Source: Byssovorax sp. (GTDB lineage: Bacteria; Myxococcota_A; Polyangia; Polyangiales; Polyangiaceae). From it: a stretch of 64,000 nucleotides of DNA. Positions 5,211 to 28,474 of this stretch are shown here, in pieces. The DNA is taken from the NCBI GenBank assembly GCA_025362495.1, contig JANYGI010000114.1:62001-126000 (forward strand). The letters are read 5' to 3'. Numbering within the stretch: position 1 is the stretch's first letter; each line of letters opens with the position of its first letter. Below the pieces are notes generated by a model that ran no database searches, was not told the DNA's origin, and saw only the letters and a program-made list of their open reading frames with translations. The position numbers and the translations under genes are program-made.

Positions 5211-5270
5211 CTCGTCCTCGAGCCGCTGAGCCCGCCGCGAGGTAGGTTCACGCAGCTCGAGAGTCGGCTG

Positions 5271-5308
5271 GCCCGGGCCGCCGCTCCACGAGGAGCGGTA
5301 ACCCGGGC
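5271..5308 (+). terminator. Two-tier hairpin between precursor and enzyme genes
   Basis: An outer stem GCCCGGG (5271-5277) pairs with CCCGGGC (5302-5308). Inside it, CCGCTCC (5281-5287) pairs with GGAGCGG (5292-5298) around the loop ACGA. No T-run follows. It may act as a partial terminator or as an RNA-stabilising end of the precursor transcript, giving much more precursor than enzyme. Confidence 0.6.
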
Positions 5309-5343
5309 TCAGCATTTTCTAGCGCCGGAGATCTGCACGGAAG

Positions 5344-6207: not shown

Positions 6208-7024
6208 GCCGATGGACGCCGTGATGGCCTTCCTCGAGCCCGCGTTTCGCCGCGTGGATCCGCTCGCCGGCGACGCCGCCATCGCGGGCGAGGTCGCCGC
6301 GCACGTGACGGGCAACAGCCGCCTCACGCCCGCCGAGCAGGTCGACATCTACCGTCGGCAGTACTGGCTGCGGCACCTCGACGCGCTCGCCGACGACTAC
6401 CCCGGCGTGGCGCACCTCGTCGGCGAAGAGGCCTTCGACGTCTTCCTCCGCGCGTACCTCGTCGCGTACCCGCCGCGCCACAAGTCGCTCCGCGATCTCG
6501 GCTGCGACATCGTCACGTTCGGCGACGGCTACGCGTTCGCCGACGACGTGCAGGCTGCGGCGCGCGAGATGCTCGCCTACGAGCACGCCTTCATCGATCT
6601 GTTCGACGGGGCCGAGCCGCCGCCGCTCGATCCGCAGAAGCTCACCTCGATCCCGGAAGACGCGTGGGAGCGCGCGCGCGTCGTGATCCACCCGCTTCTG
6701 GTGCACCGGCGCGTGCGCTTCCCCGTGCACCGGCTCCGGCTCGCGGCGAAGGACAGCGACGCCGCGCCGCGCACCGAGCCCCCTGCCCTCGCCCCGGCGA
6801 ACCTCGTGCTCTACCGCGACGACAACCTGATCCGCTTCGAAGAGCTCGACGGGACGGCGTTCGCGCTGCTCGACGCGCTCGCGCGGGGCGAGGCGCTCGG
6901 GCCCGCCTGCGAGCAGGTCGCCGCCACGCTCGACGCCGCAGCGGCCGAGCAGCTCGGCGCCCAGGTCGGACCGTGGTTCCAGCAATGGACCGCGCGCCGA
7001 TGGATCGTCGACGTCGTCGTTTGA
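6191..7024 (+). CDS. bufC: DUF2063 partner protein of the MNIO enzyme (BufC type)
   Basis: A 277-residue protein whose N-terminal half is the DUF2063 domain. Typical stretches are the early RxxYWLRHLDALADDYPGV-like segment and the LRAYLVAYPPRHKSLRDLG segment. DUF2063 proteins sit beside DUF692 enzymes and, as in MbnC/BufC, bind the precursor and assist the oxidation. The C-terminal part (about 185-277) is a separate domain ending in a Trp-rich strand. I prefer GTG 6191, which has GAGG at 6181-6184 and overlaps the enzyme gene by 17 bases, showing translational coupling. ATG 6212 and GTG 6167 are alternatives. No DoxX-like or export gene follows, so the operon appears to be only three genes. 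Confidence 0.85.
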   Translation: MTAPREPMDAVMAFLEPAFRRVDPLAGDAAIAGEVAAHVTGNSRLTPAEQVDIYRRQYWLRHLDALADDYPGVAHLVGEEAFDVFLRAYLVAYPPRHKSLRDLGCDIVTFGDGYAFADDVQAAAREMLAYEHAFIDLFDGAEPPPLDPQKLTSIPEDAWERARVVIHPLLVHRRVRFPVHRLRLAAKDSDAAPRTEPPALAPANLVLYRDDNLIRFEELDGTAFALLDALARGEALGPACEQVAATLDAAAAEQLGAQVGPWFQQWTARRWIVDVVV

Positions 7025-7970: not shown

Positions 7971-8684
7971 ATGAGCCTGATACAGACCGTCGTAGGATTG
8001 TTCGACACCGCGCGGATCAGCTTTCCGACCGTCGCCGACAGCCTGCGCGGGCCCGTCCCCGCCTCGGTGACGGAGCAGCGCCTCTCCTGGTGGACAGCCA
8101 AGCTCCTCCGCGACGCCGAGGTCGATCTCCACGTGAGCGGCCTCGAGCACGCCGGCGACGGCCGAGAGGCCATGATCGTGATGTCCAATCATCAGAGCCT
8201 CTATGACATCCCGGTGCTGTTCCAGGCGCTCCCGGGCTCGCTCCGCATGGTGGCCAAGGCCGAGCTCTTCCGCATGCCCGTCTGGGGCCGCGCCATGCTC
8301 GCCGCGGGCTTCATCCGCATCAATCGCGCCGATCGCGAGCAGGCCGTGGAGAGCCTGCGCGCGACGGGCGGAGCGCTCCTCGCGCAGGGAACGCGGGTGT
8401 GGATCGCCCCCGAGGGCACGCGCAGCAAGACGGGTGAGCTCGGCCCGTTCAAGAGCGGAGGCTTCCGCATGGCGCTCGATTTCGGGGTGCGCATCCTCCC
8501 CGTCGTCGTCGACGGCACGCGCCACGTGCTCGCCTCGACCGACTGGACGGTTCACCGCGGCAAGACGGTGACTGTCACCGTGCTCCCGCCCATCGATCCT
8601 GCGCCGTTCGGCATCGAGCGGCGCAAGGAGCTGATGAGCGAGGTACGGTGTGCGATCGCCTCTGGCCTCGGCGTCGCCCCGTGA
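7971..8684 (+). CDS. plsC: 1-acyl-sn-glycerol-3-phosphate acyltransferase (PlsC)
   Basis: A 237-residue LPLAT-family enzyme that transfers an acyl chain to lysophosphatidate to make phosphatidate at the inner membrane. It has the catalytic HX4D motif NHQSLYD (His74, Asp79), the substrate motif around GFIRINR (113-119) and EGTRS (148-152), all intact and in the usual spacing. An N-terminal hydrophobic patch probably anchors it. ATG 7971 is 38 bases after the preceding lipoprotein. A second, divergent acyltransferase lies at 29905, so this genome region holds two members of the superfamily. The gene converges with the next one after only 45 bases. Confidence 0.9.
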   Translation: MSLIQTVVGLFDTARISFPTVADSLRGPVPASVTEQRLSWWTAKLLRDAEVDLHVSGLEHAGDGREAMIVMSNHQSLYDIPVLFQALPGSLRMVAKAELFRMPVWGRAMLAAGFIRINRADREQAVESLRATGGALLAQGTRVWIAPEGTRSKTGELGPFKSGGFRMALDFGVRILPVVVDGTRHVLASTDWTVHRGKTVTVTVLPPIDPAPFGIERRKELMSEVRCAIASGLGVAP

Positions 8685-8729
8685 CTATGGAGTCGCCGGG
8701 CCGCGGTGATTGCCAGTCTCCCGCGGCGA

Positions 8730-10427
8730 TCAGGGGGTGAAGGTGATCCCGTAGTTGCCCGCGGAGTTGCCGCCGCCAATGACGCTGCCATCGACGTAAA
8801 CGTACGTCGCCGCGCCGCCGTTTACGTTGCCCATGGAGATCGACTCGGCCGCGTTGCCCCCGTTGTTGGAGCACGTGAGCTCGGAGTTGCCGTCGGCGCA
8901 CGACGAGCGCGAGTACAGCACCGCGTTGTAGTTGGTGTTGGCGTTGACGGTGTCGACGTCGAGCGGCCCGGCGACCGCGCGCGTCACGGCGTAGACCACC
9001 TGACCGCCGGGCTGGCCGCCGCAGCTCCCCTGCACAGTGGGGAACCCGTTGATGCCCGTGGTGGACCCGCGCACCGTCATCCCGGAGCCGATTTCGAGGG
9101 GGATCGGGACCGGATCATTGCAGTCGAGGCCGGACGAGAGATCGAAGTGAATCTTGTAGCTGCCGTCGTCGCCGGCGTTGAAGCCGTCGACGAACACGTA
9201 CGCCGTCTGGCCTTGCTGGATGCGGATGGAGACGACCTCGCCGCCGTTCAACATCAGCTGGTTCTGCGGATCGTAGCTGTCGTTGCAGAGCAGCGTGGCG
9301 TTGGCATTGGCGTCGCTGCACGCCGCGGCGACGTAGAGCACGCTGTCGAAGGTGGTCTGGCTGCGGACGAGGTTGGCCGTGAGGAAGCCGTTCGCCGTGG
9401 CCTTCACCGCGTAGACGCGATCGGTCGCGGCCGACGTGCAGCCTTGCGCGGTGTGGTCGCCGCCGTTCGTCGTCGAGCCCGACACGTCCTGCCCGCCGAG
9501 CCCGATCGTCACCGGGATCGCGGTGCCACAGGTGGATCCGGCCGAGCTCACGACTTCGGTGTGGCAGGCGGAGTCGCAGCCGTCGCCCGAGGTGGTGTTG
9601 CCGTCGTCGCACTGCTCGGTCGGCTCGAGCTTGCCATTGCCGCAGGTGGCCTTGCAGCCGGCGCCGTCGAGCTGGCAGCCCGTGCATTTCAGGCCATCGC
9701 CCTTCGAGTAGCCGAGATCGACGCACGTGTGGCCGTTGAGGAACGGGCCGTCGCAGGTCTCGCCGGTCTCGAGCTTCTGGCCGTCGCACGTCGCCGCGCA
9801 GCCCGTCGTGTCGATCTGGCAGTTGACGCATTTCGTGCCGACGGGGTTGCTGAAGCCGACGTCGGTGCAGTCGTGGCCGTTGAGCAGCGCGCCGTCGCAG
9901 AGCTCGCCGGGCTCGACCTTCTGACCGTCGCACGTCGGCTTGCACAGGCCGAAGTTGACCTTGCAGCCCGCGGTGCAGATCAGCCCCGCCGGGTTGGTGA
10001 AGTTGAAGCTCGTGCAGCTGAGCGTGCCGAAGTCGGTCTGGTCGCACTGCTCGCCCGGCTCCTTGATACCGTCGCCGCAGCCGATGCCGCCGGTGCTCGT
10101 GCTCGACGTCGTCGCGCCCGTGGTCGCGGTGCTCGATCCCCCGGCGCCGCCCCCGCCGCCAGGGCCCGAGGCCGTCGTCGTCGTCGGGTTCGTCGCTGCC
10201 GTCGTCGAGGTCGTGTCGCCGCCCTGGCCGGTGCTGGTCACCATCGTGGACGCCGTGGACGACGTTGACGTCGTCGCCGCGCCACCTGCGCCCGACGCGG
10301 CGCCGGAGTCGAAGAGGTCGTCGTTGCCGAGCCCCCCGCACGCGCCGGCTCCCGCCCCAAGCAGGCCCGCCCCGAGCAGCGCCAGGCCCACCCGCGGAGC
10401 ATTCAAACGCAACGATCGCTTCGACAT
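8730..10427 (-). CDS. Myxobacterial surface lipoprotein with Cys-rich repeats
   Basis: A 565-residue exported protein. The start ATG 10427 precedes a basic/hydrophobic signal with a lipobox-like end at Cys30. A Ser/Thr/Gly-rich linker (about 35-120) leads to four cysteine-rich repeats (about 120-280). The last of these, with CGNGKLEPTEQCDDGN, is the Myxococcus disulfide repeat (DUF4215-like). The C-terminal half holds two similar beta-rich domains with GCTS..DRVYAV- and VVYAVT-type segments, like pre-peptidase C-terminal domains. It is probably displayed on the outer membrane; function is unknown. Frames upstream of 10427 are open but not signal-like. Confidence 0.8.
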   Translation of the reverse strand: MSKRSLRLNAPRVGLALLGAGLLGAGAGACGGLGNDDLFDSGAASGAGGAATTSTSSTASTMVTSTGQGGDTTSTTAATNPTTTTASGPGGGGGAGGSSTATTGATTSSTSTGGIGCGDGIKEPGEQCDQTDFGTLSCTSFNFTNPAGLICTAGCKVNFGLCKPTCDGQKVEPGELCDGALLNGHDCTDVGFSNPVGTKCVNCQIDTTGCAATCDGQKLETGETCDGPFLNGHTCVDLGYSKGDGLKCTGCQLDGAGCKATCGNGKLEPTEQCDDGNTTSGDGCDSACHTEVVSSAGSTCGTAIPVTIGLGGQDVSGSTTNGGDHTAQGCTSAATDRVYAVKATANGFLTANLVRSQTTFDSVLYVAAACSDANANATLLCNDSYDPQNQLMLNGGEVVSIRIQQGQTAYVFVDGFNAGDDGSYKIHFDLSSGLDCNDPVPIPLEIGSGMTVRGSTTGINGFPTVQGSCGGQPGGQVVYAVTRAVAGPLDVDTVNANTNYNAVLYSRSSCADGNSELTCSNNGGNAAESISMGNVNGGAATYVYVDGSVIGGGNSAGNYGITFTP

Positions 10428-14521: not shown

Positions 14522-15742
14522 TCAGAAGACTTCGGGGCACCACGGGGCGCGCGCCGAACGAAAGAGCGCGTCGGCGCGGAGCAGCGCGCCCGGCGTGCGC
14601 TCGACGGCGCGCCCGGCGTCGGCGAGGCGGGTGAAGCCGACGCCGCCGAGGTACGTCGCGCCGAGCGCGTCGACGTCGAGCGTGAGATCCGGCGCCTCCC
14701 CGGTGCGCGCGGCCTTGCCGTCGGCGAGGCGATACGAGCCTTCATTCCACGGGCAAAACGCGTCGCGTACGCCGATCACGAGCGGCGGGCCCTCGGCCTC
14801 CCAGCCGCGCTGCGAGAGCGCCGCGGCGACGTCGACGAGGCGGATCCACACCGCGTCGTTGAGGCGCATGCCGAGGCGCCCCGGCTCGACGACGAGGTGC
14901 AGCAGCGGGTGATCGATTGGCAGGAGCGAGGCCCTGATCGTGCGCACCAGATCGGTGTCGCAGAGGTAGCGCCAGATCGCGCGCGTGGCCGCGGGCGAGT
15001 CGCCGAGCGCCTCGACGACGTCGAGCGATCCCGCGAGGACGTCGTCGACGACGTGGGTGCCGACGCGGTACGCCGCGTAGCCCGCCGGGCGACCGTCGAG
15101 GGTGCAGAGCACGCGCAGCTGCGCCGGCCGGCCGGCGCGCGCCCAGTCGGGATCGGACAGGCGACGCGAGCGCCACCAGCTCGGCGAGCGCGAGAGCAGC
15201 CCCGGCGTCGCGAGGCGGACCCGCTCGTAGATCGGCGCGAACTCGCGGGCCGCTTCGTCGAGATCGACGAGGCGAAAGCGCGCGGTCGCGGCGGCGCCCG
15301 GCGCTCCGGAGAACTGCGAGCGATCGCGATCGAGCGCGATCGAGCCGCCGAACGAGGCCACGCCGTAGCCGAAGCGGCCGTAGATCGATCCCTCCGACGC
15401 GAAGAGCGAGGCCACCGATTTGCCGCGCGCGCGCGTCTCGTCGAGGTGGGCGCGCATCAGCTCGCGGAGGATCCCGCGGCGTCGATGGGTCGGGAGCACC
15501 GCGACGATCGTCAGCCCCTCGGTCTCGACGGCAACGCCTCCCGGCGTGGTGGTCGCGAAGGACCAGGAGCCCGCGGAGCCCACGAGCGCGTCGCCGTCGA
15601 AGGCGCCGAGGCGCATCTGGAATTCGGCGAGCGATTGCAGGCGCGCGACGCGCTCCGGGACGGCGCCGATCCCGAACGCGATCCCCATCGGGCCGAGAAG
15701 CGCAGCGTCTTCGTCGAGCGACGTGGGGCGGATGGTGATCAT
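14522..15742 (-). CDS. Eis-like GNAT N-acetyltransferase
   Basis: 406 residues with the three-part plan of the Eis family. An N-terminal GNAT fold has acetyl-CoA loop VLPTHRRRGILRELM (about 94-108), followed by a second GNAT-like region and a C-terminal sterol-carrier-like domain. The chain ends in CPEVF, where the terminal carboxylate acts as catalytic base in Eis enzymes. Eis proteins acetylate amines, including aminoglycosides and protein lysines; the natural substrate here is unknown. ATG 15742 starts the conserved ITIRPTSLDED strand; the slightly longer frame is arginine-rich and unlikely. It shares the strand of the ligase and NRPS genes upstream, but a 49-base gap leaves co-transcription open. 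Confidence 0.88.
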   Translation of the reverse strand: MITIRPTSLDEDAALLGPMGIAFGIGAVPERVARLQSLAEFQMRLGAFDGDALVGSAGSWSFATTTPGGVAVETEGLTIVAVLPTHRRRGILRELMRAHLDETRARGKSVASLFASEGSIYGRFGYGVASFGGSIALDRDRSQFSGAPGAAATARFRLVDLDEAAREFAPIYERVRLATPGLLSRSPSWWRSRRLSDPDWARAGRPAQLRVLCTLDGRPAGYAAYRVGTHVVDDVLAGSLDVVEALGDSPAATRAIWRYLCDTDLVRTIRASLLPIDHPLLHLVVEPGRLGMRLNDAVWIRLVDVAAALSQRGWEAEGPPLVIGVRDAFCPWNEGSYRLADGKAARTGEAPDLTLDVDALGATYLGGVGFTRLADAGRAVERTPGALLRADALFRSARAPWCPEVF

Positions 15743-15791
15743 CACCGCGCGAGCATACGCGCGAGCGCGCCCGCCCGGTAACACCGAAAAA

Positions 15792-17369
15792 TCAGGGCTT
15801 TCGCAGCTTGAAGCGCTGGATCTTCCCGGTCGCGGTCTTCGGCAGGTCGGCCACGATCTCGATCCAGCGCGGGTATTTGTAGGGCGCGAGCGTCGCCTTC
15901 ACGTGGACCTTGAGCGCCTCGATCAGCGCGTCGGACGCGAGCGCGCCCTCGGCGAGCACCACGATCGCGCGCGGCTTGATCAGGCCGTTCTCGTCGGCGT
16001 GACCGACGACGGCGGCCTCGAGGACGTCGGGGTGCGCGACGAGCGCGGTCTCGACCTCGAACGGCGAGACGTAGATCCCGCCGACCTTGAGCATGTCGTC
16101 GGAGCGGCCCTGGTAGACGTAGCGCCCCTCGGCGTCGCACAGGTAGTGATCGCCGGTGCGCGTCCAGCGGCCGTGAAACGTGGCGTGGCTCTGCTCGCGC
16201 TTGTTCCAGTAGAGCGCCGCCGCCGACGGGCCGCTGACCCAGAGATCGCCGACGCCGCCGGGCGCGACGGCGTGGCCGTGCTCGTCGCGGATCGCGACCT
16301 CGTAGCCGGGGACGGGCTTGCCCGTCGTCCCGTAGCGCACGTCGCCGGGCCGGTTCGAGAGGAAGATGTGCAGCATCTCGGTCGAGCCGATCCCGTCGAG
16401 GATGTCCACGCCGGTGCGCGCGACGAAGCGATCGCCGACGTCTTTCGGGAGCGCCTCGCCGGCCGACGTGCAGACGCGGAGCGCGCTCGACGCCAGCTCG
16501 CCCGGCTCGGCGAGGAGCGAGGCGTAGAGCGTGGGAACGCCGTAAAATATCGTCGGCCTCTTCTCGACGAGGCGACGACGGACCGCGGCGGGCGTGGGGC
16601 GCTCGCCCATCAGCAGCGCGGTCGCGCCGACGCGGAGCGGGAACGTGATCGAGTTGCCGAGGCCGTAGGCGAAGAAGAGCTTCGCGGCGGAGAACACCAC
16701 GTCGTCCTCGCGGATCCCGAGGACGCTCGTGCCGTAGTACTCGGCCGTGTAGACCAGATCCGACTGCCGGTGCACCGCGCCCTTGAGCTGCCCCGTGGAG
16801 CCCGACGTGTAGAGCCAGAACGCGAAGTCGTCGGCGCAGGTGGGCGCGGCCTCGAGCGCGGGGCTCGCCGCGGCGAGGATCGCGTCGAGCGCGAGCGCGC
16901 CCCCCGCCGCCGGGCCGTCGAGGATCACGTGCTCGAGGAACGGCTGCCCGGGCAGGATCGCCGCGATCTTGTCGAAGAGCGGAGCCGAGACGACCAGGAC
17001 CCGCGCGCGCGTGTCGCGGAGGAGCGCGTCGTAGTCGCTCGCGGTGAGCAGCGTGTTCACCGGCACGGGGACGGCGCCAATCTTGATCGCGCCGAAGAAC
17101 ACCGCGGGGAAGCGCACCGTGTCGAGGAGCACGAGGAGCACGCGCTCTTCCATCCGCACGTCGAGGCCTCGCAGCGCGTTGCCCGCGCGGTTGACCTGCT
17201 CGGCGAGGCCGGCGTAGGTGAGTTCGGTGGTGTCGTCGATGAACGCGACCTTGGCCCCGCGCCCCTCGGCGAGGTGGCGATCGACGAAGTCGGCGGCCGC
17301 GTTGTAGACGCGCGGGATCGCGATCATGGGCGGGGACGTGGAGCGGTCAGCCGTGGCGTAGCCGGACAT
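15792..17369 (-). CDS. Benzoate-CoA ligase family enzyme
   Basis: 525 residues of the ANL (acyl-adenylating) superfamily, making an acyl-CoA from acid, ATP and CoA. The phosphate loop YTSGSTGQLKG (near 215), the segment DGIGSTEMLHIFLSN (near 335), the hinge DDMLKVGGIYVSPFEVE (near 435) and the catalytic Lys in KTATGKIQRFKL (near 517) are intact. The GSTEMLHIFLSN pattern is that of benzoate-CoA ligases, so an aryl acid is the likely substrate. It lies 26 bases downstream of maf, which overlaps the NRPS, so it may supply an aryl-CoA starter to that enzyme; alternatively it serves aromatic catabolism, though no ring-degrading gene is near. Confidence 0.85.
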   Translation of the reverse strand: MSGYATADRSTSPPMIAIPRVYNAAADFVDRHLAEGRGAKVAFIDDTTELTYAGLAEQVNRAGNALRGLDVRMEERVLLVLLDTVRFPAVFFGAIKIGAVPVPVNTLLTASDYDALLRDTRARVLVVSAPLFDKIAAILPGQPFLEHVILDGPAAGGALALDAILAAASPALEAAPTCADDFAFWLYTSGSTGQLKGAVHRQSDLVYTAEYYGTSVLGIREDDVVFSAAKLFFAYGLGNSITFPLRVGATALLMGERPTPAAVRRRLVEKRPTIFYGVPTLYASLLAEPGELASSALRVCTSAGEALPKDVGDRFVARTGVDILDGIGSTEMLHIFLSNRPGDVRYGTTGKPVPGYEVAIRDEHGHAVAPGGVGDLWVSGPSAAALYWNKREQSHATFHGRWTRTGDHYLCDAEGRYVYQGRSDDMLKVGGIYVSPFEVETALVAHPDVLEAAVVGHADENGLIKPRAIVVLAEGALASDALIEALKVHVKATLAPYKYPRWIEIVADLPKTATGKIQRFKLRKP

Positions 17370-17395: not shown

Positions 17396-17986
17396 TCATG
17401 GAATCACGAACCCGATCTCGCCGAGCATCGCCCCGAGCGCGAGCAGCGGGAGGCCGATGATGGCCGTGTGATCGTCGGATTCGATCCGCGAGAACAGCGC
17501 GATCCCGAGGCGCTCGAGGCGGTACGAGCCGCAGCAGTCGAGGGGCTGATCAGCGGCGACGTAGCGCGCGATCTGCGCCGGCGTGAGCGGCCGCATCGTC
17601 AGTCGGGTCACGTCGGTGTGCGCGAGGACGCGGCCCTCGACGAGCAGCGCCACCGCCGTGATCAGCGTGTGCGTGCGCCCCGCGAGGCGCGCGAGCTGCG
17701 CGCAGGCGGCGGCCTCGGTCCCGGGCTTGTCGAGGATCAGATCGTCGATCGCGGCGACCTGATCGCCGCCGAGGATCGCGGCGTCGGGGTGGGCCGCGCG
17801 CAGGCTCTCGGCCTTCAGGCGAGCCAGCGTCTCGGCGAGCTCGCGCGGCGATAATCCCCTGAATTTGTGGGCGTTTTCGTCGCAATCGGGCGCGGCCGCG
17901 ACGAACGGCACGCCCAGGCGCGCGAGCAGCTCGCGGCGATACGGGGACGTGCTCGCGAGGACGAGCGACGGCGCGCCGCCGGTCAC
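17396..17986 (-). CDS. Maf/YceF family nucleoside triphosphate pyrophosphatase
   Basis: 196 residues. Maf proteins hydrolyse non-canonical or modified NTPs to the monophosphate. The signature LASTSPYRRELL (10-21), the acidic GGDQVA (73-78) and the block CGSYRLERLGIALFSRIE are present. The GS(Y/F)-type block and the final GLPLLAL resemble YceF, the 7-methyl-GTP pyrophosphatase branch, more than Maf itself. The start is GTG 17986, whose last base begins the NRPS stop TGA (four-base overlap GTGA), with AAGGAG eight bases before it. Such coupling to an NRPS is odd for a housekeeping gene and suggests simple read-through from the biosynthetic message. Confidence 0.88.
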   Translation of the reverse strand: MTGGAPSLVLASTSPYRRELLARLGVPFVAAAPDCDENAHKFRGLSPRELAETLARLKAESLRAAHPDAAILGGDQVAAIDDLILDKPGTEAAACAQLARLAGRTHTLITAVALLVEGRVLAHTDVTRLTMRPLTPAQIARYVAADQPLDCCGSYRLERLGIALFSRIESDDHTAIIGLPLLALGAMLGEIGFVIP

Positions 17987-20900
17987 CGCGACGGCTCCTT
18001 CCCCGGCTTCGCGGGCGCGGCGGCGGCGGCCAGCGCGTCGGCCCGATCGATCGCCGCGTGGACCTTGCTCAGCGCGATGTTGAGCTCGCGCGCCAGCACC
18101 GCCACGTGCGGCGGCCGCATGAAGTCGGTGTGCACGCCGTCGACGTGGTGCAGATCGACGCCGCCGCGCGTGCGATCGCCCCAGCCGAGCCGCTCGTCCT
18201 TGATCCGCCAGGGGGGCTGCTCTTTGACGCGGAACACGGTGATCGGCGCGTCGACTTTTGGCGGGACGAAGCTCGGCCCGGGGAAGACGCGCTCGTCCCA
18301 CAGGGCCTGCGTGGTCGCGGCGAACGACGCCGCGCGCGTCGCCTCATCGCGCGCGGCGGCGTTCGACGCCGGCTCGTTCTGCCGCTTGGGCCGGATGCGC
18401 GCGGCGAGCCTGCCCAGCATCTGCTTGACGTACTTCTGCTTCTTCGGCGGGGTCATCGCCAGGAAGTCGGTGAGCTTCTGGTAGTACTTGGACGCGAAGT
18501 TCACGAACCGCCGCCGCGTGTTCTCCTCCGGCCAGGCGTCCATCATCCCGAGGAACGCCACCTTCTGACCGGCCGCCTCGAGCTGGCGCGTCATCACGAA
18601 CGCAATGAGCGCGCCCTCGCACATCCCGCCGAGCAGGTAGGGGCCTTCGGGCTGAAACGCGCGGAGGATCTCGCAGTAGGAGCGGCCGCGCTCTTCGTAC
18701 TCGTCGCGCGTGTACGGCCGGCCGAGGTACGACTCCTCTGGGTACTGGAACTGGAGGCCGTACACCGGCTGATCCGGATCGAGGCGCTTCGCGAGCGCGA
18801 TGTACCCGAGCGAGTTGGCGTTGGGTCGGGTCACCAGGAAAAACGGCCGCCGCGAGCCGGTCACCTTCATCGGCACCAGCGTCTTCCACACGTGCTTGGC
18901 CGCGCCGTCGCGCAGCAGATCGGCGATCTGCTCGACGGTCTGTGCCTCGAAGAGCGACGTCAGAGGGATGGTCTTACCGATGGCCTTCTTGAGCTCCGAG
19001 GTCATCTTCACGGCGAGCATCGAGTGACCGCCGAGGTCGAAGAAGCTGTCCTTGATGCCGATCCGCGCGACGCCGAGCACGCTGCGCCACACGTTGATGA
19101 TCTGCGCCTCGAGCTCGTCGCGCGGCGCCGCGGTCCCGGCGAGCGTCCGGCCCGCGCCCGCGTCGGGCGCGGGCAGCGCGGCGCGATCGATCTTGCTGTT
19201 GGCCGTGCGCGGCATCTGCTCGAGAACGACGAAGTTCGTCGGGATCAGGTGATCGGGCAGCGTCTCTTTGAGGAACGCGCGGGCCTCGGCGGCGGTCGGT
19301 GCGACGGCGGGCGGCAAGGGCACGAGGTACGCGACGAGGCGCTTGTCGCCCGGCGTGTCCTCGCGCGCGATGACGGTGCACTCGCGCAGCGCGGGGTGCC
19401 GGCTGAGCGCCGCCTCGATCTCGCCGAGCTCGATCCGGAAGCCGCGGATCTTCACCTGAAAATCGCGTCGACCACCGAACGCGATCGCTCCGTCGGGCAG
19501 GAAGCGAGCGAGATCACCGGTGCGATAGAGGCGCTCGCTGGCAACGAACGGGTTAGCAATGAAGCGCTCGGCCGTGAGTTCGGGTCGGTTCAGATAGCCC
19601 CGGGCGACGCCGTCGCCACCGACGTAGAGCTCGCCGAACACGCCGATCGGCACGGGAGCGAGGGCCTCGTCCAGTATGTAGACCGTCGAGTTGGAGATGG
19701 GTCGACCGATGGGCATCGCGCCGTCGTGAGGCTCGCGAGGGATCGGGTGCATCGTGGTGAAGGTCGTGCCCTCCGTCGGCCCGTAGGCATTGACGAGGTC
19801 CACGTCGGGCAGCGCGGCGAGCGCCATTTTCACGTGTGACATCGAGAGCGAGTCGCCGCCGGTGAGCACGCGGCGCACGGTCGCGAGGGCCTCGACGGGC
19901 CCCTCGACGATGGCGTTGAAGAGGCCCGATGTGAGGAACATCAGCGTGACCCGCTCGCGGCGGATCACCTCCGCGATGTCGTCCAGCGCCGGGATGCCGG
20001 GTGGGAAGATCGCCAGGCGTCCGCCGTTCAGGAGCGGGCCCCAGACCTCGAAGGTCGCGGCGTCGAACGTCATCGGCGCGATCTGGAGGACTACCTCATC
20101 GCGGCCTAACGCGGCGTAGCTCGTCCCCATCACGAGGCGCACGACCGATCCGTGCTCGACGCAGACCCCCTTCGGCAGACCCGTCGATCCCGAGGTGTAC
20201 ATCACGTACGCGAGGCTCGATCCCGAGGCCCCCACGTCGTCGAGGGGCGCCTCGATCTCGCGGGCGATCGCCTCGTCGTCCGCATCGAGACGCACCAGCG
20301 GCTTCGTCTCGAGCGCAGCCGGGAAGCGGCCCGTGCCGACGATCAGCTCCACGCCGGCGTCGTCGATCATGAACGCGAGGCGGGGCGCGGGATAGTCGGG
20401 ATCGAGCGGCACGTACGCCCCGCCCGCCTTGAGGATGCCGACCACGGCGACGATCATCTCGATCGATCGCGCCGCGAGCACGCCGACCGGCGTCTCGTGG
20501 ACGACGCCGCGCCCGCGCAGGTGACGCGCGAGCTGGTTCGCGCGCCGATCGAGTTCACCATACGTGATCTTCGCCTCGCCGAACGTGGCGGCGACGGCGT
20601 CGGGACGTGCGGAGACCTGGGCCTCGAAGAGCGACTGGAGGCTCGCGCCGCGCGGGTACTCGGTGCGGGTGTTGTTCCAGTCGAAGAGGATCTGGCGGCG
20701 CTCGTCGTCCGCGAGCATCGCCGCGGCGCGGATCGTCTGATCCGGATCTGCGGCGAACGCTTCGAGCAAGGCGCGCAGGTGACGGAGCATCCGGTCGATC
20801 GTCGCGCCGTCGAAGAGATCGACGTTGTACTCGAGGTTCACGCCGAGGCCGGACGCGGCCTCGACCATTCCGATCATCAGATCGAATTTGGCGGTGGTGG

Positions 20901-23900
20901 TGGGCGCGCTCATCCCGCGCAGCCGCAAGCCCGAGTCACCGCTGCCGGCCTCGCCCGACACCGTCTCCAGCGTGAACATCACCTGGAACAGGGGCGAGCG
21001 GCCAAGGTCGCGATCGGGCGCGAGCTCCTGCACCAGGCGCTCGAACGGGACGTCTTGGTGGGCGTAGGCGCCGAGGCAAGCCTCGCGCACTTGCTGGAGC
21101 AGCTCGCGAAACGAGAGCTCGCCCGTGGGCCGCGCGCGCAGGACCAGCGTGTTGACGAAGAAGCCGATCAGCCCCTCGGCCTCGCGTCGCTGGCGGTTGA
21201 GCATCGGCGTGCCGACGAGGATGTCGTCCTGCCCGCTGTAGCGGCTCAGCAGCGCGTACGCCGTGCCGAGCAGGGTCATGAATAACGTCATCCCCTCGCG
21301 GCGAGAGAGCTCTTTCAACGCGACGAGCAGCGACCTCGGCAAGGTGATCGAGCGCCGATCGCCGCGGTGGGTCTGCACCGGGGGGCGGACGCGATCGGTC
21401 GGCAGCACCAGCGCGGTCGGCGCCCCCTCCAGGTGCTTCTTCCAGTACGCGAGCTGCTTCTCGAGCACCTCGCCGTCGAGCCAGTGGCGTTGCCAGTAGG
21501 CGTAGTCGGCGTACTGGATCGGCAGCTCAGGGAGCGGCGAGCCGAGGCCCCTCGCGAAGGCCGAGTACAGCGTCATCAGCTCGCGCTGGAAGATCACGCG
21601 GGTCGACGCGTCGGACACGATGTGGTGCAGCGTCAACAGGAGGACGTGATCGTGGTCGCCGAGGCGGAGGATCTGGCCGCGGACCATCGGGCCGACAGCG
21701 AGATCGAACGGGCGCGCGGCCTCTTCGCGCATCGCGGCGCGGGTGGCCGCTTCGCGAGCGCCAGGCGCGATCTCGCCCATATCGACGAGCGGCACCTCGG
21801 TGGTCACGACGTCGTGGATCACCTGGATCGGCTGCCCGTTTTCAAGCGCAAACGTGGTGCGCAGCACCTCATGGCGGCGGACGATCTCGCGGAAGGCGCG
21901 CACCAGCGCGCCAGCGTCGAACGGCCCCGCGAAGTGCGTCGCCGAGGGGACGTTGTAGAACGAGCTCCCGGGCTCGAGCTGATCGAGGAACCAGAGCCGC
22001 TCCTGCGCGAACGATAGGCGGAGCTCGGCGCCGCGCGGCATGCGGGTGATCGGGGGCGCCTCGAGGCCCTGATCCTCGCGCACGGTGGCTTCGACGACGG
22101 CGGCGAGCGCGGCGATCGTCGGGTGCTCGAAGATCGCGCGCAGCGGGATCTGCGCCTGGAACGCGTCGCGCGCGCGGGCCACGATCTGGATCGCCAGGAG
22201 CGAGTGGCCGCCGAGATCGGCGAAGCGCTCGTCGATGCCGACGCGCTCCTTGCCGAAGACGTCGGCCCAGATGCTCGCCAGCACCTCTTCCGTCGGCGTG
22301 CGCGGCTCGACGTGGCCTTCCGGGATCGCCCGCGGCCGCTCGAGCGTCGCGAGGGCGCGGCGATCGATCTTGCCGTTCGACGACAGCGGCAGCGCGTCGA
22401 GGAAGTCGAACGACGCCGGCACCATGTAGTCGGGCAGGCGCTGCGCGAGGAAGGTCGCGAGGTCGGCCGCGGCGGGCGCCTCGCTCGCGCTCTCTCTCAC
22501 CACGAACGCGGCGAGGCGCTTGGTGTCGGTGTCGCCGTCGTCGAGCGCGAGGACCACGGCCTCCTTCAGCGACGGGTGGGCCGCGAGGGCCGACTCGATC
22601 TCGCCGAGCTCGACGCGGAAACCCCTTATCTTGACCTGGAAATCGATCCGACCGAGGAACACGAGCGTGCCGTCGGGGAGGTAGCGCGCGCGATCGCCGG
22701 TGCGGTAGAGGCGCGCTCCCGGAGTGAACGGATCGGGGACGAAGCGCTCGGCGGTGAGCTCCGGTTGATCGAGGTAGCCGCGCGCGATCTGCGCGCCGCC
22801 GATGTAGATCTCGCCCGGTACGCCCGTGGGCGTGGGCTCCATCCGCCCGTCGAGCACGTGAACGCGGTTGTTCGGCAGCGGCGTGCCGAGCGGCACGATC
22901 GCCGCGTCCGGGCGCGCGCCCCTGGTGACGGCGTGGGTGAGCACGCCGACCGTGGTCTCGGTCGGCCCGTAGTGGTTGAGGATCCGCATCGCCGGCGCGA
23001 GGCGCTCGAGGCGATCGACGAGCTCCCAGCTCGAGGCCTCGCCGCCGAGCACGAGGAGCGCGCGCGGCAGCACGCGAGCGGGCTGCGACGCCGAGAGCAG
23101 CGCCGAGAGATGCGACGGCACGATCTTGAGGCAGTCGATCCCCTCGCGCGCGAAGTAGGCGCCGAGGCCGTCGGGATCCGTCGTCAGCTCCTCGCCGATC
23201 ACGTGGAGCACGCCGCCGGTGACGAGCGGCGGGAAGAGCACGGTGTTGCCGAGATCGGCCGCAAAGGTGGACACGTGCGCGTAGCTCGCGCCGGCGGGGA
23301 GCGCGAGGCGCGCGCTCACCCCGAGCGTGTAGTTGACGAGCTGACGGTGCTCGACCGCAACGCCCTTGGGCTTGCCCGTCGAGCCCGACGTGAAGAGCAC
23401 GTAGGCGAGGTTGCTCGAAGTAGCCTCGTTTTCGAGGCGATCGGTCGATCGCATCGCCAGCGCCGCCGCGCCGTCGTCGAGGAGGATCGAGGTCGTGCCC
23501 GCGGGCATCGACGCGGCGACCGAGGCTTGCGTGACGACGATGGTCGCCCGGGCTTCGCCCAGGATCTGCGCGATGCGGCCCGCCGGGTAGCCCGGCTCGA
23601 GCGGGAGGTACGCGCCCCCCGATTTGAGGATCCCGAGCAGGCCGATGATCACCTCGGCGCCACGGCCGAGGCAGAGGCCGACGACGGAGTCGGGTCCGAC
23701 GCCGAGCTCGCGGAGGTGATGCGCGAGCTGGTTTGAGCGGCGATCGAGCTCGGCGAACGTGAGCCGCGATTCGCCGGCGACGAGCGCCGTAGCGTCGGGC
23801 GTGCGATCGACCTGGGCCTCGAAGAGATCGTGCAGGCACGCCCCCTCGCCCAGCGACGACGACGCGGGGTTCCACTCCACGAGGAGGCGCGCGCGCTCCT

Positions 23901-26900
23901 CGGCGGGCAGGAGCGAGATCTCGCGGACCTTCTTTTCAAGGGATCTCGGCATCGCCACGAGCAGCGTGCTCAGCTGGCGGAGCATGCGGTCGATGGTCGA
24001 GGCGTCGAAGAGATCGGTGTTGAACTCGATCGAGGCCCGCAGGCTCCCCTCGATCTCGCCCATCAGGAAGGTGAGGTCGTACTTCGCCGTGGTGCTGCCG
24101 CCGCCGCCGAGGCTACGGATGTCGAGGCCCGGGAGCGCGAGGCCGGCGCGGGGCGCGTTCTGCAGGGTGAAGATCACCTGGAACAGCGGCGCGCGGCTGC
24201 GATCCGGCTCGGGCGCGAGCTCGTGCACGAGGCGCTCGAAGGGCATGTCCTGGTGGGCGTACGCGCCGAGGCAGGTCTCGCGCACCTGCTGCAGCGTGGC
24301 GCGCAGGGTCGCGTCCTCGTCGAGCGTGGTGCGGAGGACGAGGGCGTTGATGAAGAAGCCGACGAGCTTCTCGGTCTCGGCCTGGGTGCGCCCCGCGATC
24401 GAGGTCCCGACGACGACGTCGGGCTGCCCGGTGTAGCGGTAGAGCAGCAGATCGAGCGCGGTGAGCAGCGTCATGTAGAGGGTGACGCCCTCCTTGCGCG
24501 AGAGATCGACGAGGGCCTTGGTGGCGTCGGCGGAGAGCGCCATCCCGCGGAGCGCGCCGCGGAACGTCTGCACCGGCGGTCGCGGTCGATCGGTCGGGAG
24601 CTCGAGCGCGAGGGGAGCGCCGGCGAGCTTGGTCTTCCAGTACGCGAGCTGGGCGTCGAGCACGCCGCCGCTGAGCCAGCCGCGCTGCCACTCGGCGAAG
24701 TCGGCGTATTGCACGGTGAGCTCGGGCAGCGGCGAGGCCTCGCCCGCGCGGAACGCCTCGTAGAGGGCGCGGCTCTCGCGGCTCATGATCCCGCGCGTCC
24801 AGGCGTCGGAGACGATGTGGTGCATCGTCAACGAAAGGACATGCTCGCCCTCGTCGACGCGGATCAGGCGAGCGCGCAGGAGCGGGCCGCGAGCGAGATC
24901 GAACGGGAGGCGCGCGTCGTCGGCCACCATCGCGCGGGCGGCGGCCTCGCGCTCGGCCACCGGCAGCGCCGAGAGATCGACGACGCCGCCCCAGAACGAC
25001 ACGTCGGCGTGGATGATCTGCACCGGGCGACCGTCGACCGTGGCGATGGTCGTGCGCAGGACCTCGTGGCGGCGGACGATCTCGCGCAGCGCGCGCTCGT
25101 ACGCGGCGACGTCGAGCGGCCCGAGCAGGCGCAGCGGCTCGGGCACGTTGTAGGCGGGGTTGCCCGGATCGATCTGATCGACGAGCCAGAGCCGCTCCTG
25201 CGCGAACGAGAGACGGAGCCTCCGAGCGCGCGCGACCGGGACGAGCGGCGGCAACGCCGATCCGCGGAGCGAGCCCGCGATCCGCGCCGCGAGCTCGGCC
25301 GGTGTCGGAGCCTCGAAGAGCGCGCGCAGCGGCAGCTCGACGCCGAGCGCGCCGCGGATCCGGGTGACCGCCTGCGTCGCCGTCAGCGAGTGCCCGCCGA
25401 GCTCGAAGAAGCCGTCGTGCGCGCCGACCGACGCGACCTTGAGCACCTCGGCGAAGATGGCCGCGAGCGTCTCTTCGACGGGGCCGCGCGGCGCGACGTA
25501 CTCGCGCTCGCTCGAGGTGTCGGTCGCCCCGGGCGCGGGCAGCGCGCGGCGATCGACCTTGCCGTTGGCCGTGAGCGGGAGCGCGTCGAGCGCGACGAAG
25601 ATCGCCGGCACCATGTACTCGGGCAGCGCGTTCTTCACGGCGACGCGGAGCTCCGACGTGGCGAGCGCCGCGCCGTCGGCCCCGACGACATACGCGACGA
25701 GGCGCTTGTCGCCAGGCTGATCCTCGCGCGCGACGACGACGACGTCGCGGACGCCGGACTGCTTGCGCAGGACGGCCTCGATCTCGCCGAGCTCGATCCG
25801 GAAGCCGCGCAGCTTGATCTGGTGATCGAGCCGGCCGAGGTACTCGAGCTCGCCCCCCTCGCGGTAGCGGCCGAGATCGCCGGTGCGGTAGAGGCGCTCA
25901 CCGGCGACGAAAGGGCTCAGCACGAAGCGATCGGCCGTCATTCCGGGCTGATGGAGATACCCGCGCGCCAGGCCCGCGCCGCCGAGGTAAATCTCGCCCG
26001 CGACGCCGATCGGCTCGGGCTCCATGCGCGCGTCGAGGATGTACGCGGTGCCGTTGGCGATGGGCCGGCCGATGAGCGGCGCGCTCCCGTCGCGCGGCAC
26101 GAGCGTGTACGTGGAGTACGTCGTGTCCTCGGTCGGGCCGTAGAGATTGTAGAGCTTTTCGATCGTCGGCTCGGCGTACACCGCCGCGGCGAGGCTCGCG
26201 GGGAGCGCTTCGCCGGCCAGACAAACGGTGCGCACGGACGCGGGGATGCCCTTCATGCGCAGGAGCTCGGCCATCGCCGACGGGACGGTGTTGATCAGCG
26301 TGACCTGATCGGCCGCGGTCAGCGTCGGGAGCTCGAGCGCGTTCGTCGCGATGAGGAGCCTGCCACCGACGGCGAGCGGGAGAAACACTTCAAAAACCGA
26401 GAGATCGAACGAGATCGACGTCGAGAAGAGCACCCCCGCGAGCTCGGCCGCCGAGAAGACCTGGCGGCCCCAGGCCACGAGCGCGACGGCGCTCCGGTGC
26501 TCGATCGCGACGCCCTTCGGCGTGCCGGTGGAGCCCGACGTGAAGAGCACATACGCGAGATCGCGCGCCGTGGCGCCGCCGGCGAGGCGGGGGGAGGCCT
26601 CGAGCGGGGGCTCGCCGACGAGGAGCAGCTCGGCCGCGTTCTCGGGGAGCGCCGCGCGCGCGGCGTCGTCGATGACGATCACCGGCGCCTGCGCCTGCAG
26701 GAGGATCTGCGCGAGCCTCGGCCGCGGGTACGCAGGATCGAGCGGCACGTAGGCCCCGCCCGCCTTGAGGATCCCGAGCATCGCTGCCACCAGCGCGGCG
26801 CTGCGGTGCACCGAGACGCCGACGAGCGTGCCCGCCTCCACCCCGCGCTCACGAAGCCGATGGGCGACGGCGTTCGCCCACGCGTCGAGCCGCCGGTAGG

Positions 26901-28416
26901 TGACCGTCTCGGTCCCGGCGACGAGGGCGACGGCGTCCGGCGTGCGGTCGACCTGCTGCTCGAAGAGCTGGTGGAGCCCCACGCCCTCGGGGATCGGCGC
27001 GGCGGTCTCGTTCCACGCGACGAGGAGCGTGCGGCGCTCGGCCTCGTCGAGCAGCGACACATCGCCGAGCTTCGCGGCGGGATCGCGCGCGAACGCCTCG
27101 AGGATGGTCACGAGGTGGGCGAGGACGCGATCCACGGTGGCGGCGTCGAAGCGGCGCGCGTCGTGGCCGATGTTCAGCATCAGCGTCTGGCGCAGGGCGC
27201 CGAGGAGCGTGAGCGGGTACGGCGGCGTTTCGAGGGTCGACCCCTCGCTGATCGCGGTGCGCTTCTGCGGTCCCGACGGCCCCTTCCCTGCCCCCACCTG
27301 CTGCGGCGCCGTCGTCGGATCGATCGGGTAGTTCTCGAAGACGACGAGGCTCTCGAACAGCGGCGTTCCCCGGGGGATCGCGCTCCAACCGTGCACGTCG
27401 ACGAGCGGGCTGTACTCGAACTCGGTGAGCTCGCCCTGGGCCCGGTGGAGCGCGGTGAGCCACGCGAGGACGGTCTCGCCCTGCGGCACCCGCACGCGCA
27501 CCGGAACGGTGTTGATGAACAGGCCCACCATCCGATCAATGCCGGCGACCGGCGCCGAGCGGCCGGAGACCGTGGCGCCGAAGAGCACGTCGTCCTCGCC
27601 GCTGTAGCGCGCGAGGAGGAGCGCCCACGCGCCCTGCAGGAGGGTGCTCAGGGTGAGGTTGTTGCGGCGGACCAGCTCCTGGATCGACACGAGCGACGCG
27701 CCGCTGATCTCGCGCTTGCGCTCGCCGAAGCGCGGCGCGCCTGCGACGAGCGCAGCGACGTTCCCCCCGGGCAGCGCCGTCGGCGCCGTGAGGCCAGCGA
27801 GGCGGGCCCGCCAGAAGGCCTCGGCCTTGCTGGCGTCCTGCTTTTGCAGCCATGCGACGTAATCGCGGTACGAGCGCGCGCGCTCGAGCTGGAGCTCGCG
27901 ACCATTGATCCTCGCGTTGTACAGGCCGAAGACCTCGAACAGCAGAATCGGGTTCGACCAGCCGTCGAGGATGAGGTGATGGGAGCTCCAGAGGAAGCGA
28001 TAGGCGTCCTCGTCGAGCCGAAGAAAGGCCAGCCGCAGGAGGGGCGCGCGGGTGAGATCGAAGCCGCGGCGCCGATCTTCCTCGGCGAACGCCGCGACGC
28101 GGGCCGCCTGCTCCGCCGCGGGTAGGCCGCGGAGATCGACCTCGGTCACCGGGACCTTCACTCGCTTCCAGACGACCTGCATCGGCTGCTCGAGCTTTTC
28201 CCAGACGAAGGCCGTGCGCAGGGCGCCATGGCGATCGACCACCTCCTGAAAGGCGCGCACAAGAGCCTTCGTGTCGACGTCGCCCCGCAGCGTCCACCCC
28301 GCCTGAACGAAATACGCGCCTGGCTCCGATGCCTCGGAGGCAACCAGCGATTGGTACAGGATACCCTGCTGCAGGGGAGCGAGCGGATAGATGTCTTCGA
28401 GGTTGTTCCGGCTCAT
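17983..28416 (-). CDS. Three-module nonribosomal peptide synthetase, C-A-T-C-A-T-C-A-T-TE
   Basis: One intact 3477-residue chain. C1 has HHLILDG near 145. A1 covers about 480-960, T1 Ser is near 1008, and C2 has HHIVSDA near 1200. A2 covers about 1530-2020, T2 is near 2071 and C3 has HHIVSDA near 2265. A3 covers about 2595-3080, T3 is near 3129 and TE covers about 3190-3450. All three carriers keep GGHS. Reading specificity residues by eye gives A1 DLFNCALTYK (close to an alanine code) and A3 DAFFLGATFK (Ile/Val-like). A2 has FAADLGNT instead of FDxSxxE, so its substrate is unclear. TE has GMCEG with Cys3266, Asp3293 and His3429. There is no epimerase. The N-terminal C domain and absent loading module suggest an N-acyl tripeptide. 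GTG 28434 is an alternative start. Confidence 0.93.
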   Translation of the reverse strand: MSRNNLEDIYPLAPLQQGILYQSLVASEASEPGAYFVQAGWTLRGDVDTKALVRAFQEVVDRHGALRTAFVWEKLEQPMQVVWKRVKVPVTEVDLRGLPAAEQAARVAAFAEEDRRRGFDLTRAPLLRLAFLRLDEDAYRFLWSSHHLILDGWSNPILLFEVFGLYNARINGRELQLERARSYRDYVAWLQKQDASKAEAFWRARLAGLTAPTALPGGNVAALVAGAPRFGERKREISGASLVSIQELVRRNNLTLSTLLQGAWALLLARYSGEDDVLFGATVSGRSAPVAGIDRMVGLFINTVPVRVRVPQGETVLAWLTALHRAQGELTEFEYSPLVDVHGWSAIPRGTPLFESLVVFENYPIDPTTAPQQVGAGKGPSGPQKRTAISEGSTLETPPYPLTLLGALRQTLMLNIGHDARRFDAATVDRVLAHLVTILEAFARDPAAKLGDVSLLDEAERRTLLVAWNETAAPIPEGVGLHQLFEQQVDRTPDAVALVAGTETVTYRRLDAWANAVAHRLRERGVEAGTLVGVSVHRSAALVAAMLGILKAGGAYVPLDPAYPRPRLAQILLQAQAPVIVIDDAARAALPENAAELLLVGEPPLEASPRLAGGATARDLAYVLFTSGSTGTPKGVAIEHRSAVALVAWGRQVFSAAELAGVLFSTSISFDLSVFEVFLPLAVGGRLLIATNALELPTLTAADQVTLINTVPSAMAELLRMKGIPASVRTVCLAGEALPASLAAAVYAEPTIEKLYNLYGPTEDTTYSTYTLVPRDGSAPLIGRPIANGTAYILDARMEPEPIGVAGEIYLGGAGLARGYLHQPGMTADRFVLSPFVAGERLYRTGDLGRYREGGELEYLGRLDHQIKLRGFRIELGEIEAVLRKQSGVRDVVVVAREDQPGDKRLVAYVVGADGAALATSELRVAVKNALPEYMVPAIFVALDALPLTANGKVDRRALPAPGATDTSSEREYVAPRGPVEETLAAIFAEVLKVASVGAHDGFFELGGHSLTATQAVTRIRGALGVELPLRALFEAPTPAELAARIAGSLRGSALPPLVPVARARRLRLSFAQERLWLVDQIDPGNPAYNVPEPLRLLGPLDVAAYERALREIVRRHEVLRTTIATVDGRPVQIIHADVSFWGGVVDLSALPVAEREAAARAMVADDARLPFDLARGPLLRARLIRVDEGEHVLSLTMHHIVSDAWTRGIMSRESRALYEAFRAGEASPLPELTVQYADFAEWQRGWLSGGVLDAQLAYWKTKLAGAPLALELPTDRPRPPVQTFRGALRGMALSADATKALVDLSRKEGVTLYMTLLTALDLLLYRYTGQPDVVVGTSIAGRTQAETEKLVGFFINALVLRTTLDEDATLRATLQQVRETCLGAYAHQDMPFERLVHELAPEPDRSRAPLFQVIFTLQNAPRAGLALPGLDIRSLGGGGSTTAKYDLTFLMGEIEGSLRASIEFNTDLFDASTIDRMLRQLSTLLVAMPRSLEKKVREISLLPAEERARLLVEWNPASSSLGEGACLHDLFEAQVDRTPDATALVAGESRLTFAELDRRSNQLAHHLRELGVGPDSVVGLCLGRGAEVIIGLLGILKSGGAYLPLEPGYPAGRIAQILGEARATIVVTQASVAASMPAGTTSILLDDGAAALAMRSTDRLENEATSSNLAYVLFTSGSTGKPKGVAVEHRQLVNYTLGVSARLALPAGASYAHVSTFAADLGNTVLFPPLVTGGVLHVIGEELTTDPDGLGAYFAREGIDCLKIVPSHLSALLSASQPARVLPRALLVLGGEASSWELVDRLERLAPAMRILNHYGPTETTVGVLTHAVTRGARPDAAIVPLGTPLPNNRVHVLDGRMEPTPTGVPGEIYIGGAQIARGYLDQPELTAERFVPDPFTPGARLYRTGDRARYLPDGTLVFLGRIDFQVKIRGFRVELGEIESALAAHPSLKEAVVLALDDGDTDTKRLAAFVVRESASEAPAAADLATFLAQRLPDYMVPASFDFLDALPLSSNGKIDRRALATLERPRAIPEGHVEPRTPTEEVLASIWADVFGKERVGIDERFADLGGHSLLAIQIVARARDAFQAQIPLRAIFEHPTIAALAAVVEATVREDQGLEAPPITRMPRGAELRLSFAQERLWFLDQLEPGSSFYNVPSATHFAGPFDAGALVRAFREIVRRHEVLRTTFALENGQPIQVIHDVVTTEVPLVDMGEIAPGAREAATRAAMREEAARPFDLAVGPMVRGQILRLGDHDHVLLLTLHHIVSDASTRVIFQRELMTLYSAFARGLGSPLPELPIQYADYAYWQRHWLDGEVLEKQLAYWKKHLEGAPTALVLPTDRVRPPVQTHRGDRRSITLPRSLLVALKELSRREGMTLFMTLLGTAYALLSRYSGQDDILVGTPMLNRQRREAEGLIGFFVNTLVLRARPTGELSFRELLQQVREACLGAYAHQDVPFERLVQELAPDRDLGRSPLFQVMFTLETVSGEAGSGDSGLRLRGMSAPTTTAKFDLMIGMVEAASGLGVNLEYNVDLFDGATIDRMLRHLRALLEAFAADPDQTIRAAAMLADDERRQILFDWNNTRTEYPRGASLQSLFEAQVSARPDAVAATFGEAKITYGELDRRANQLARHLRGRGVVHETPVGVLAARSIEMIVAVVGILKAGGAYVPLDPDYPAPRLAFMIDDAGVELIVGTGRFPAALETKPLVRLDADDEAIAREIEAPLDDVGASGSSLAYVMYTSGSTGLPKGVCVEHGSVVRLVMGTSYAALGRDEVVLQIAPMTFDAATFEVWGPLLNGGRLAIFPPGIPALDDIAEVIRRERVTLMFLTSGLFNAIVEGPVEALATVRRVLTGGDSLSMSHVKMALAALPDVDLVNAYGPTEGTTFTTMHPIPREPHDGAMPIGRPISNSTVYILDEALAPVPIGVFGELYVGGDGVARGYLNRPELTAERFIANPFVASERLYRTGDLARFLPDGAIAFGGRRDFQVKIRGFRIELGEIEAALSRHPALRECTVIAREDTPGDKRLVAYLVPLPPAVAPTAAEARAFLKETLPDHLIPTNFVVLEQMPRTANSKIDRAALPAPDAGAGRTLAGTAAPRDELEAQIINVWRSVLGVARIGIKDSFFDLGGHSMLAVKMTSELKKAIGKTIPLTSLFEAQTVEQIADLLRDGAAKHVWKTLVPMKVTGSRRPFFLVTRPNANSLGYIALAKRLDPDQPVYGLQFQYPEESYLGRPYTRDEYEERGRSYCEILRAFQPEGPYLLGGMCEGALIAFVMTRQLEAAGQKVAFLGMMDAWPEENTRRRFVNFASKYYQKLTDFLAMTPPKKQKYVKQMLGRLAARIRPKRQNEPASNAAARDEATRAASFAATTQALWDERVFPGPSFVPPKVDAPITVFRVKEQPPWRIKDERLGWGDRTRGGVDLHHVDGVHTDFMRPPHVAVLARELNIALSKVHAAIDRADALAAAAAPAKPGKEPSR

Positions 28417-28474
28417 CTCAGCGTTGCGGCCCACGGGACGGGGGGTGTCGGCGATCGGGATTCAGGGGGGTTGC

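Follow-up and report, generated by a model that had tools for sequence, protein, structure and literature searches.

A terminal thioesterase with a cysteine nucleophile and a predicted canonical triad layout in a Byssovorax NRPS

The thioesterase (TE) domain that ends an NRPS of Byssovorax carries Cys in place of the nucleophilic Ser, and its sequence and structural model indicate a type I TE with a canonical triad layout. On this basis, the enzyme would release its peptide through capture of the enzyme-bound chain by a nucleophile, most likely one belonging to the chain itself, so that a ring is closed; we give this reading an even chance. Capture by a nucleophile appears likelier than hydrolysis, and ring closure likelier than transfer to another molecule. 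A four-membered (strained) ring is unlikely.

The NRPS (3483 aa, three modules) is encoded by a minus-strand ORF at positions 17983-28434 of the window, which is the whole 64 kb stretch of DNA that was analysed. Its features and those of the adjacent gene are as follows.

17983-28434, minus strand: NRPS with domain order C-A-PCP-C-A-PCP-C-A-PCP-TE, 3483 aa
27064-28404, minus strand: C domain 1, DCL-like (a type found after presumed epimerisation domains, which also opens first subunits)
25519-27036, minus strand: A domain 1, code DLFNCALTYK
25255-25479, minus strand: PCP 1
23905-25239, minus strand: C domain 2, LCL-like
22336-23892, minus strand: A domain 2, code DLTKVGHVGK
22069-22293, minus strand: PCP 2
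20710-22044, minus strand: C domain 3, LCL-like
19156-20700, minus strand: A domain 3, code DAFFLGATFK
18898-19113, minus strand: PCP 3
18055-18894, minus strand: thioesterase domain with Cys nucleophile
18619-18621, minus strand: catalytic Cys codon TGC, directly after beta5 in the model
18616-18618, minus strand: Glu codon GAG, next to Cys
18538-18540, minus strand: triad Asp codon GAC, directly after beta6 in the model (position I)
18130-18132, minus strand: triad His codon CAC, five residues past beta8 in the model
15792-17369, minus strand: benzoate-CoA ligase family protein, downstream of the NRPS on the same strand, with a 613-base gap

We take the code of A domain 1 to be Ala-like (with some uncertainty), that of A domain 2 to be an Asp code, and that of the terminal A domain to be Ile/Val-like. 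By this code reading, no beta-hydroxy or beta-amino residue is predicted at the terminal module. Code reading was checked at a related locus (L093), where an A code presumed to be of Asn type was found with an asparagine synthase gene nearby. The solved structures nearest to the first C domain were domains of McyB, PvdL, bacitracin synthase 3, tyrocidine synthase 2, and SrfA-C, several of which sit after epimerisation domains. This C domain clustered with C domains that stand behind presumed epimerisation domains; the same type was also found at the start of the first subunits of related lines. C domains 2 and 3, both LCL-like, showed the motif HHIVSDA instead of HHxxxDG. The benzoate-CoA ligase family protein is a possible starter supplier for the NRPS, its position being the sole pointer to such a role. 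A gene for an Eis-like GNAT acetyltransferase (14522-15784, minus strand) lies seven bases behind the ligase gene. The window also contained a RiPP locus (4932-7024, plus strand), with a Cys-rich small ORF having Cys-Lys-rich repeats (4932-5210), an MbnB/TglH/ChrH gene (PF05114; 5344-6207), and a DUF2063 gene (6167-7024); we presume this locus to be bufferin/methanobactin-like.

The preliminary description reported a TE motif GGMCEG with Cys instead of Ser and named Asp3293 and His3429 as triad partners. The motif was found as described, with codon TGC in the ORF, and the two partners were corroborated by alignment: the three columns were Cys, Asp, and His in 9/9 members of the clade described below. 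The Cys is residue 3272 when counted from GTG at 28434, and 3266, the number used earlier, when counted from ATG at 28416; Asp is correspondingly 3299 or 3293, and His 3435 or 3429. The PF00975 Thioesterase profile matched residues 3211-3444 (approximately 18103-18804), behind the third PCP, with 68.6 bits (cut-off 26.4). A chance or sequencing slip was ruled out as the source of the Cys, because four TEs of Minicystis rosea, with 36-50% identity, also read GMC[ED]G. In a survey of 40 PF00975 TEs of the same family, which were hand-picked rather than drawn at random, from long frames and among the best-scoring matches listed, the nucleophile was Ser in 38 and Cys in two, both type II-like. The Byssovorax genome had 13 PF00975 matches; the nucleophile was readable in 10, being Ser in six and Cys in four. 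Cys is therefore a minority nucleophile, though not a unique one. In an alignment of 62 distinct type I TEs, a biased set gathered by similarity to the window TE, the nucleophile column was Cys in 20 (nine clade members and 11 others).

The position of the triad Asp was examined in an AlphaFold2 model of the TE, for which 9 sequences were aligned (mean pLDDT 83.2, with values below 50 in part of the lid), and in an alignment of 66 TEs. In the model, beta5 ends at residue 91 and is followed by Cys92; beta6 comprises residues 112-118 and is followed by Asp119, 27 residues past Cys92; and beta8 ends at residue 250, with His255 five residues on. The Asp119 column was Asp in 9/9 clade members, and Asp in 51 and Glu in two of the 53 other type I TEs; all four type II TEs had Ser or Ala there, and their Asp stands after beta7. 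Another acidic residue, Asp233, eleven residues beyond beta7, was invariant in the clade and was Asp in 22/53 other type I TEs; it is provisionally taken as structural rather than as the triad acid. According to PMC11298585, the triad Asp of ObiF and SulM stands after beta7, whereas in almost every other NRPS TE of known structure it stands after beta6; PMC6668435 gives the same placement for ObiF and SulM, with strand numbers one lower. The Asp after beta7 (position II) associated with strained-ring TEs was thus not what the model and alignment of the window TE showed, nor was the Gln-Cys-Asn of SulM found at its nucleophile, which reads Met-Cys-Glu. The profile match, the elbow GxCxG, the Asp after beta6, and the His after beta8 identify the window TE, as modelled, as a type I NRPS/PKS thioesterase, and its predicted triad layout is the ordinary one of the EntF, AB3403, and BulbE type.

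Profile searches, a tree, and fold comparison were used to place the TE among known lineages. A profile made from five TEs of the clade matched, among solved structures, 7dxo/7crn (a Ser TE; E 1e-22), AB3403 (third, 3e-20), and EntF (2e-18); ObiF1 was reached at E 0.06, and SulM was not present among the 57 chains found at E up to 10. A search with the window TE alone gave EntF (2e-9) and AB3403 (2e-8), with neither ObiF1 nor SulM among its 39 chains. In a reverse control, a type II-lineage Cys TE of the same genome matched RifR (3e-43), ObiF1 (7e-12), and SulM (0.012). In a tree of 66 TEs, the four type II rows came together on a branch of their own (support 100); the window TE fell among the type I TEs in a nine-member branch (support 99). 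This was a quick tree with the ObiF, SulM, and BulbE sequences outside it, and lineage was therefore read from the profiles, the reverse control, and the published phylogeny, which puts ObiF and SulM with the type II TEs (PMC11298585 and PMC6668435). Cys was scattered over several separate branches among Ser TEs. Ten Cys TEs outside the clade, recognised by motif, require four changes on the tree, and a further one (L083), the sister row of the clade (support 86), escaped the motif pattern and was seen in the alignment. Because Cys occurs in several other branches, Cys alone is no proof of special chemistry. Fold comparison gave nearly tied Z-scores for Pks13 (21.8), AB3403 (20.9), 7crn (20.8), human FAS (20.7), and EntF (20.4), and lower scores for SulM (16.8) and RifR (16.6); ObiF1 was outside the best 50 matches, an absence that excludes nothing.

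The nine-member branch consists entirely of Cys TEs: the window TE, four from M. rosea (one NRPS-terminal, one in an A-PCP-TE protein, and two free-standing), two from one other Polyangia genus (L059/L067, from the fen_1121 MAG, and L093/L066), and two from Acidobacteriota MAGs (L060 and L063). The residue after Cys was acidic or an amide in all nine (Glu in four, Gln in three, Asp in two); after the nucleophile of the 53 other type I TEs, Gln occurred once (L089, a Ser TE) and Glu or Asp never. The clade looks rare. A match below 1e-70 was found in 4/317 genomes of the class. In a draw of 377 genomes from the phylum, the genome of the window was the sole one to pass 1e-50; the three other carrier genomes are not listed in that draw, being either undrawn or missed at first look. 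The scan of genome contigs, made with two peptide patterns only, gave 7 loci. None of the titles listed in the literature searches concerned a GxC[EDQ]G clade or NRPS-TE genes clustered with flippases.

Several other arrangements of Cys TEs were observed. The A-PCP-TE protein at L038 (7744-10731, minus strand) has no C domain, carries the code DFWNIGMVFK, which we take to be Thr-like, and a TE with GMCEG, and is encoded beside an HTTM-domain protein. M. rosea also has a pair of convergent genes ten bases apart (L037, 5194-8247, plus strand, and 8258-9898, minus strand) whose Cys TEs differ in motif, one reading GWCLG and the other AGMCEG. Another Cys group, with GHC[A/I/T]G, was represented by two adjoining TE genes per genome at L041 and L048 (G066 and G087). 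Long frames on contigs C110 and C189 of the Byssovorax genome (G000; L096 and L097) had tandem TE matches, the first type II-like with GHCLG.

The closest architectural match of the window NRPS was the terminal subunit of an M. rosea line (L037/L108; CP016211.1, ~3.29-3.31 Mb), whose domains run C-A-PCP-C-A(Asp)-PCP-C-A-PCP-TE, as in the window NRPS; a break in its reading frame falls within the third A domain. Its TE reads GMCEG and is 45% identical to the window TE, and its Asp-coded middle A domain is 66% identical to A domain 2 of the window NRPS; its third module is Gly-coded, whereas that of the window NRPS is Ile/Val-like. When this M. rosea TE was searched against the Byssovorax genome, the window TE was the only close match (E 8e-72; next 6e-17). 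The M. rosea subunit stands directly behind further NRPS subunits, whereas the window NRPS stands alone mid-contig; a role as terminal subunit in trans is therefore a guess. A related line was found in the Byssovorax genome itself, on contig C158 (L208 and L209). Its first frames are 5877 and 5203 aa (5854 and 5187 aa in M. rosea), its A codes are the same or nearly so at 7/9 places, and the contig ends within its third subunit. In that truncated subunit, the first C domain was the nearest relative of the first C domain of the window NRPS (60%, support 96). From these similarities, the window NRPS may serve in trans as the end of the C158 line, or it may be an independent copy; the C158 line, cut as it is, could own a separate terminal subunit.

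The triad and the family suggest how release would proceed. The chain on PCP 3 would pass to Cys by transthioesterification, giving an S-acyl enzyme; an amine or hydroxyl, most probably one that the chain itself carries, would then capture it. If the window subunit ends a multi-subunit line like its Minicystis relative, the result would be macrocyclisation of a longer peptide. The acid or amide beside Cys may position the nucleophile or the peptide. Cys was probably kept for nucleophile capture, because, as argued for BulbE in PMC11536411, a thioester is more prone to aminolysis than an oxoester, while hydrolysis is alike for both. Several points count against this reading, besides the scatter of Cys over the tree and the lone position of the gene: the Ala-like, Asp, and Ile/Val-like codes offer by themselves no side-chain nucleophile for a macrocycle, and in RufT an engineered Ser-to-Cys change (S105C) is reported to have raised total conversion and allowed a heterochiral substrate but lowered cyclisation of the first substrate.

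The strongest alternative, though the less probable, is plain hydrolysis to a linear acyl-peptide acid, with Cys as a neutral historical substitution. The recurrence of Cys among Ser TEs on the tree fits such a history, and the lack of a side-chain nucleophile in the three codes favours a linear product. However, Cys and the acidic or amide residue that follows it have been kept together in all nine clade members across two phyla, and the M. rosea A-PCP-TE protein, having no C domain, would presumably run a futile cycle of loading and hydrolysis.

Nucleophile capture could also involve a molecule other than the chain, and the neighbourhoods of the clade bear on this. At all four clade loci outside the Byssovorax genome and Minicystis (L059, L060, L063, and L093), a Wzx-like flippase gene was found close to the NRPS, with the flippase of L060 barely above the Pfam cut-off and two of the four loci coming from one genus, so that these may represent one event. 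The four loci variously contained glycosyltransferases, UDP-glucose dehydrogenase, polysaccharide deacetylase, GNAT proteins, and phosphopantetheinyl transferase; no glycosyltransferase was found among the scanned ORFs of L063. We take the terminal A codes at these loci to be Gly-like in three and Ser-like in L063. A profile of the four flippases drew no match in the 64 kb window or the 20 kb flanking it on each side, nor in nine Minicystis stretches or 15 further TE loci of the family, each 10-19 kb long. The profile was built from the four flippases that it matches, so that only its negative results carry weight, and it could overlook divergent flippases. With flippases at four loci and silence at the window and Minicystis, a link to glycans holds for one part of the clade. 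For the window NRPS itself a polysaccharide link was rejected on the absence of a flippase match in the window and its flanks.

These polysaccharide clusters are an argument for transfer to the amine or hydroxyl of a separate acceptor (a sugar, lipid, or small molecule), with the TE acting as an acyltransferase. The A-PCP-TE and free-standing clade members are consistent with such a role, as is the top fold match, since the Pks13 TE is reported to release its product onto polyols, preferably trehalose. We regard transfer as rather improbable for the window enzyme: the scanned ORFs around its NRPS yielded no polysaccharide genes, the flippase profile was silent there and in Minicystis, the score of Pks13 was nearly tied with those of four other structures, and a genome neighbourhood is not an assay. 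A broader and equally doubtful proposal is that the GxC[E/D/Q]G clade as a whole consists of Cys acyltransferases, which would move NRPS aminoacyl or peptidyl groups to acceptors including the sugars of exported polysaccharides, the acid or amide serving the incoming nucleophile; the window enzyme would then be a branch recruited to end a lipopeptide-like line.

Closure of a beta-lactone or beta-lactam as in ObiF and SulM, suggested by the Cys nucleophile and by the polar residue after it as in SulM, was rejected as very improbable on the position of the Asp, the lineage away from type II TEs in tree and profiles, the distant profile scores, and the predicted substrate of the terminal module; a Pfam scan of 31 window ORFs gave neither a sulfotransferase nor a transaldolase. 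The strained-ring analogy of the preliminary description is thus unsupported, while its caveat still holds: Cys TEs without such chemistry occur, and an unusual kind of release is possible.

Cys in a TE domain is easily taken for a sign of strained-ring chemistry; this case shows the need to check beforehand where the triad Asp lies and which lineage the TE belongs to. The all-Cys clade, with members at NRPS ends, in one A-PCP-TE protein, free-standing, and in polysaccharide clusters, provides a testable set for two questions: what benefit Cys confers, and whether NRPS peptides are placed onto glycans.

Among named systems, EntF shares the triad layout of the window TE but has Ser as nucleophile. 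ObiF and SulM share the Cys nucleophile and differ in the position of the Asp. SulM further resembles the window TE in having a polar residue next to Cys; in PMC11298585, this residue (Asn2819) is proposed to help place the peptide and is hydrophobic in the other domains aligned there. According to that paper, AB3403 of Acinetobacter baumannii (PDB 4zxh) has Cys as nucleophile, with its Asp after beta6, and is uncharacterised. AB3403 is, like the window TE, a type I NRPS TE, and it was the best-scoring solved Cys TE for the clade profile; it differs in reading GWCFG, with no acid or amide after Cys, and in belonging to a four-domain, single-module protein. Further sources are PMC9210659, PMC11934086, and PMC8436480. 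BulbE, the bulbiferamide TE, likewise combines Cys with Asp after beta6 (Cys961 and Asp988; PMC11536411), as does the window TE in its predicted model. Compared through the published residues rather than the full sequence, the spacing from Cys to Asp is 27 in both, and His stands at +136 in BulbE versus +163 in the window TE. The product of BulbE is an indolylamide macrolactam, and according to PMC11536411 its Cys is needed for a difficult aminolysis, the Cys-to-Ser form hydrolysing instead.
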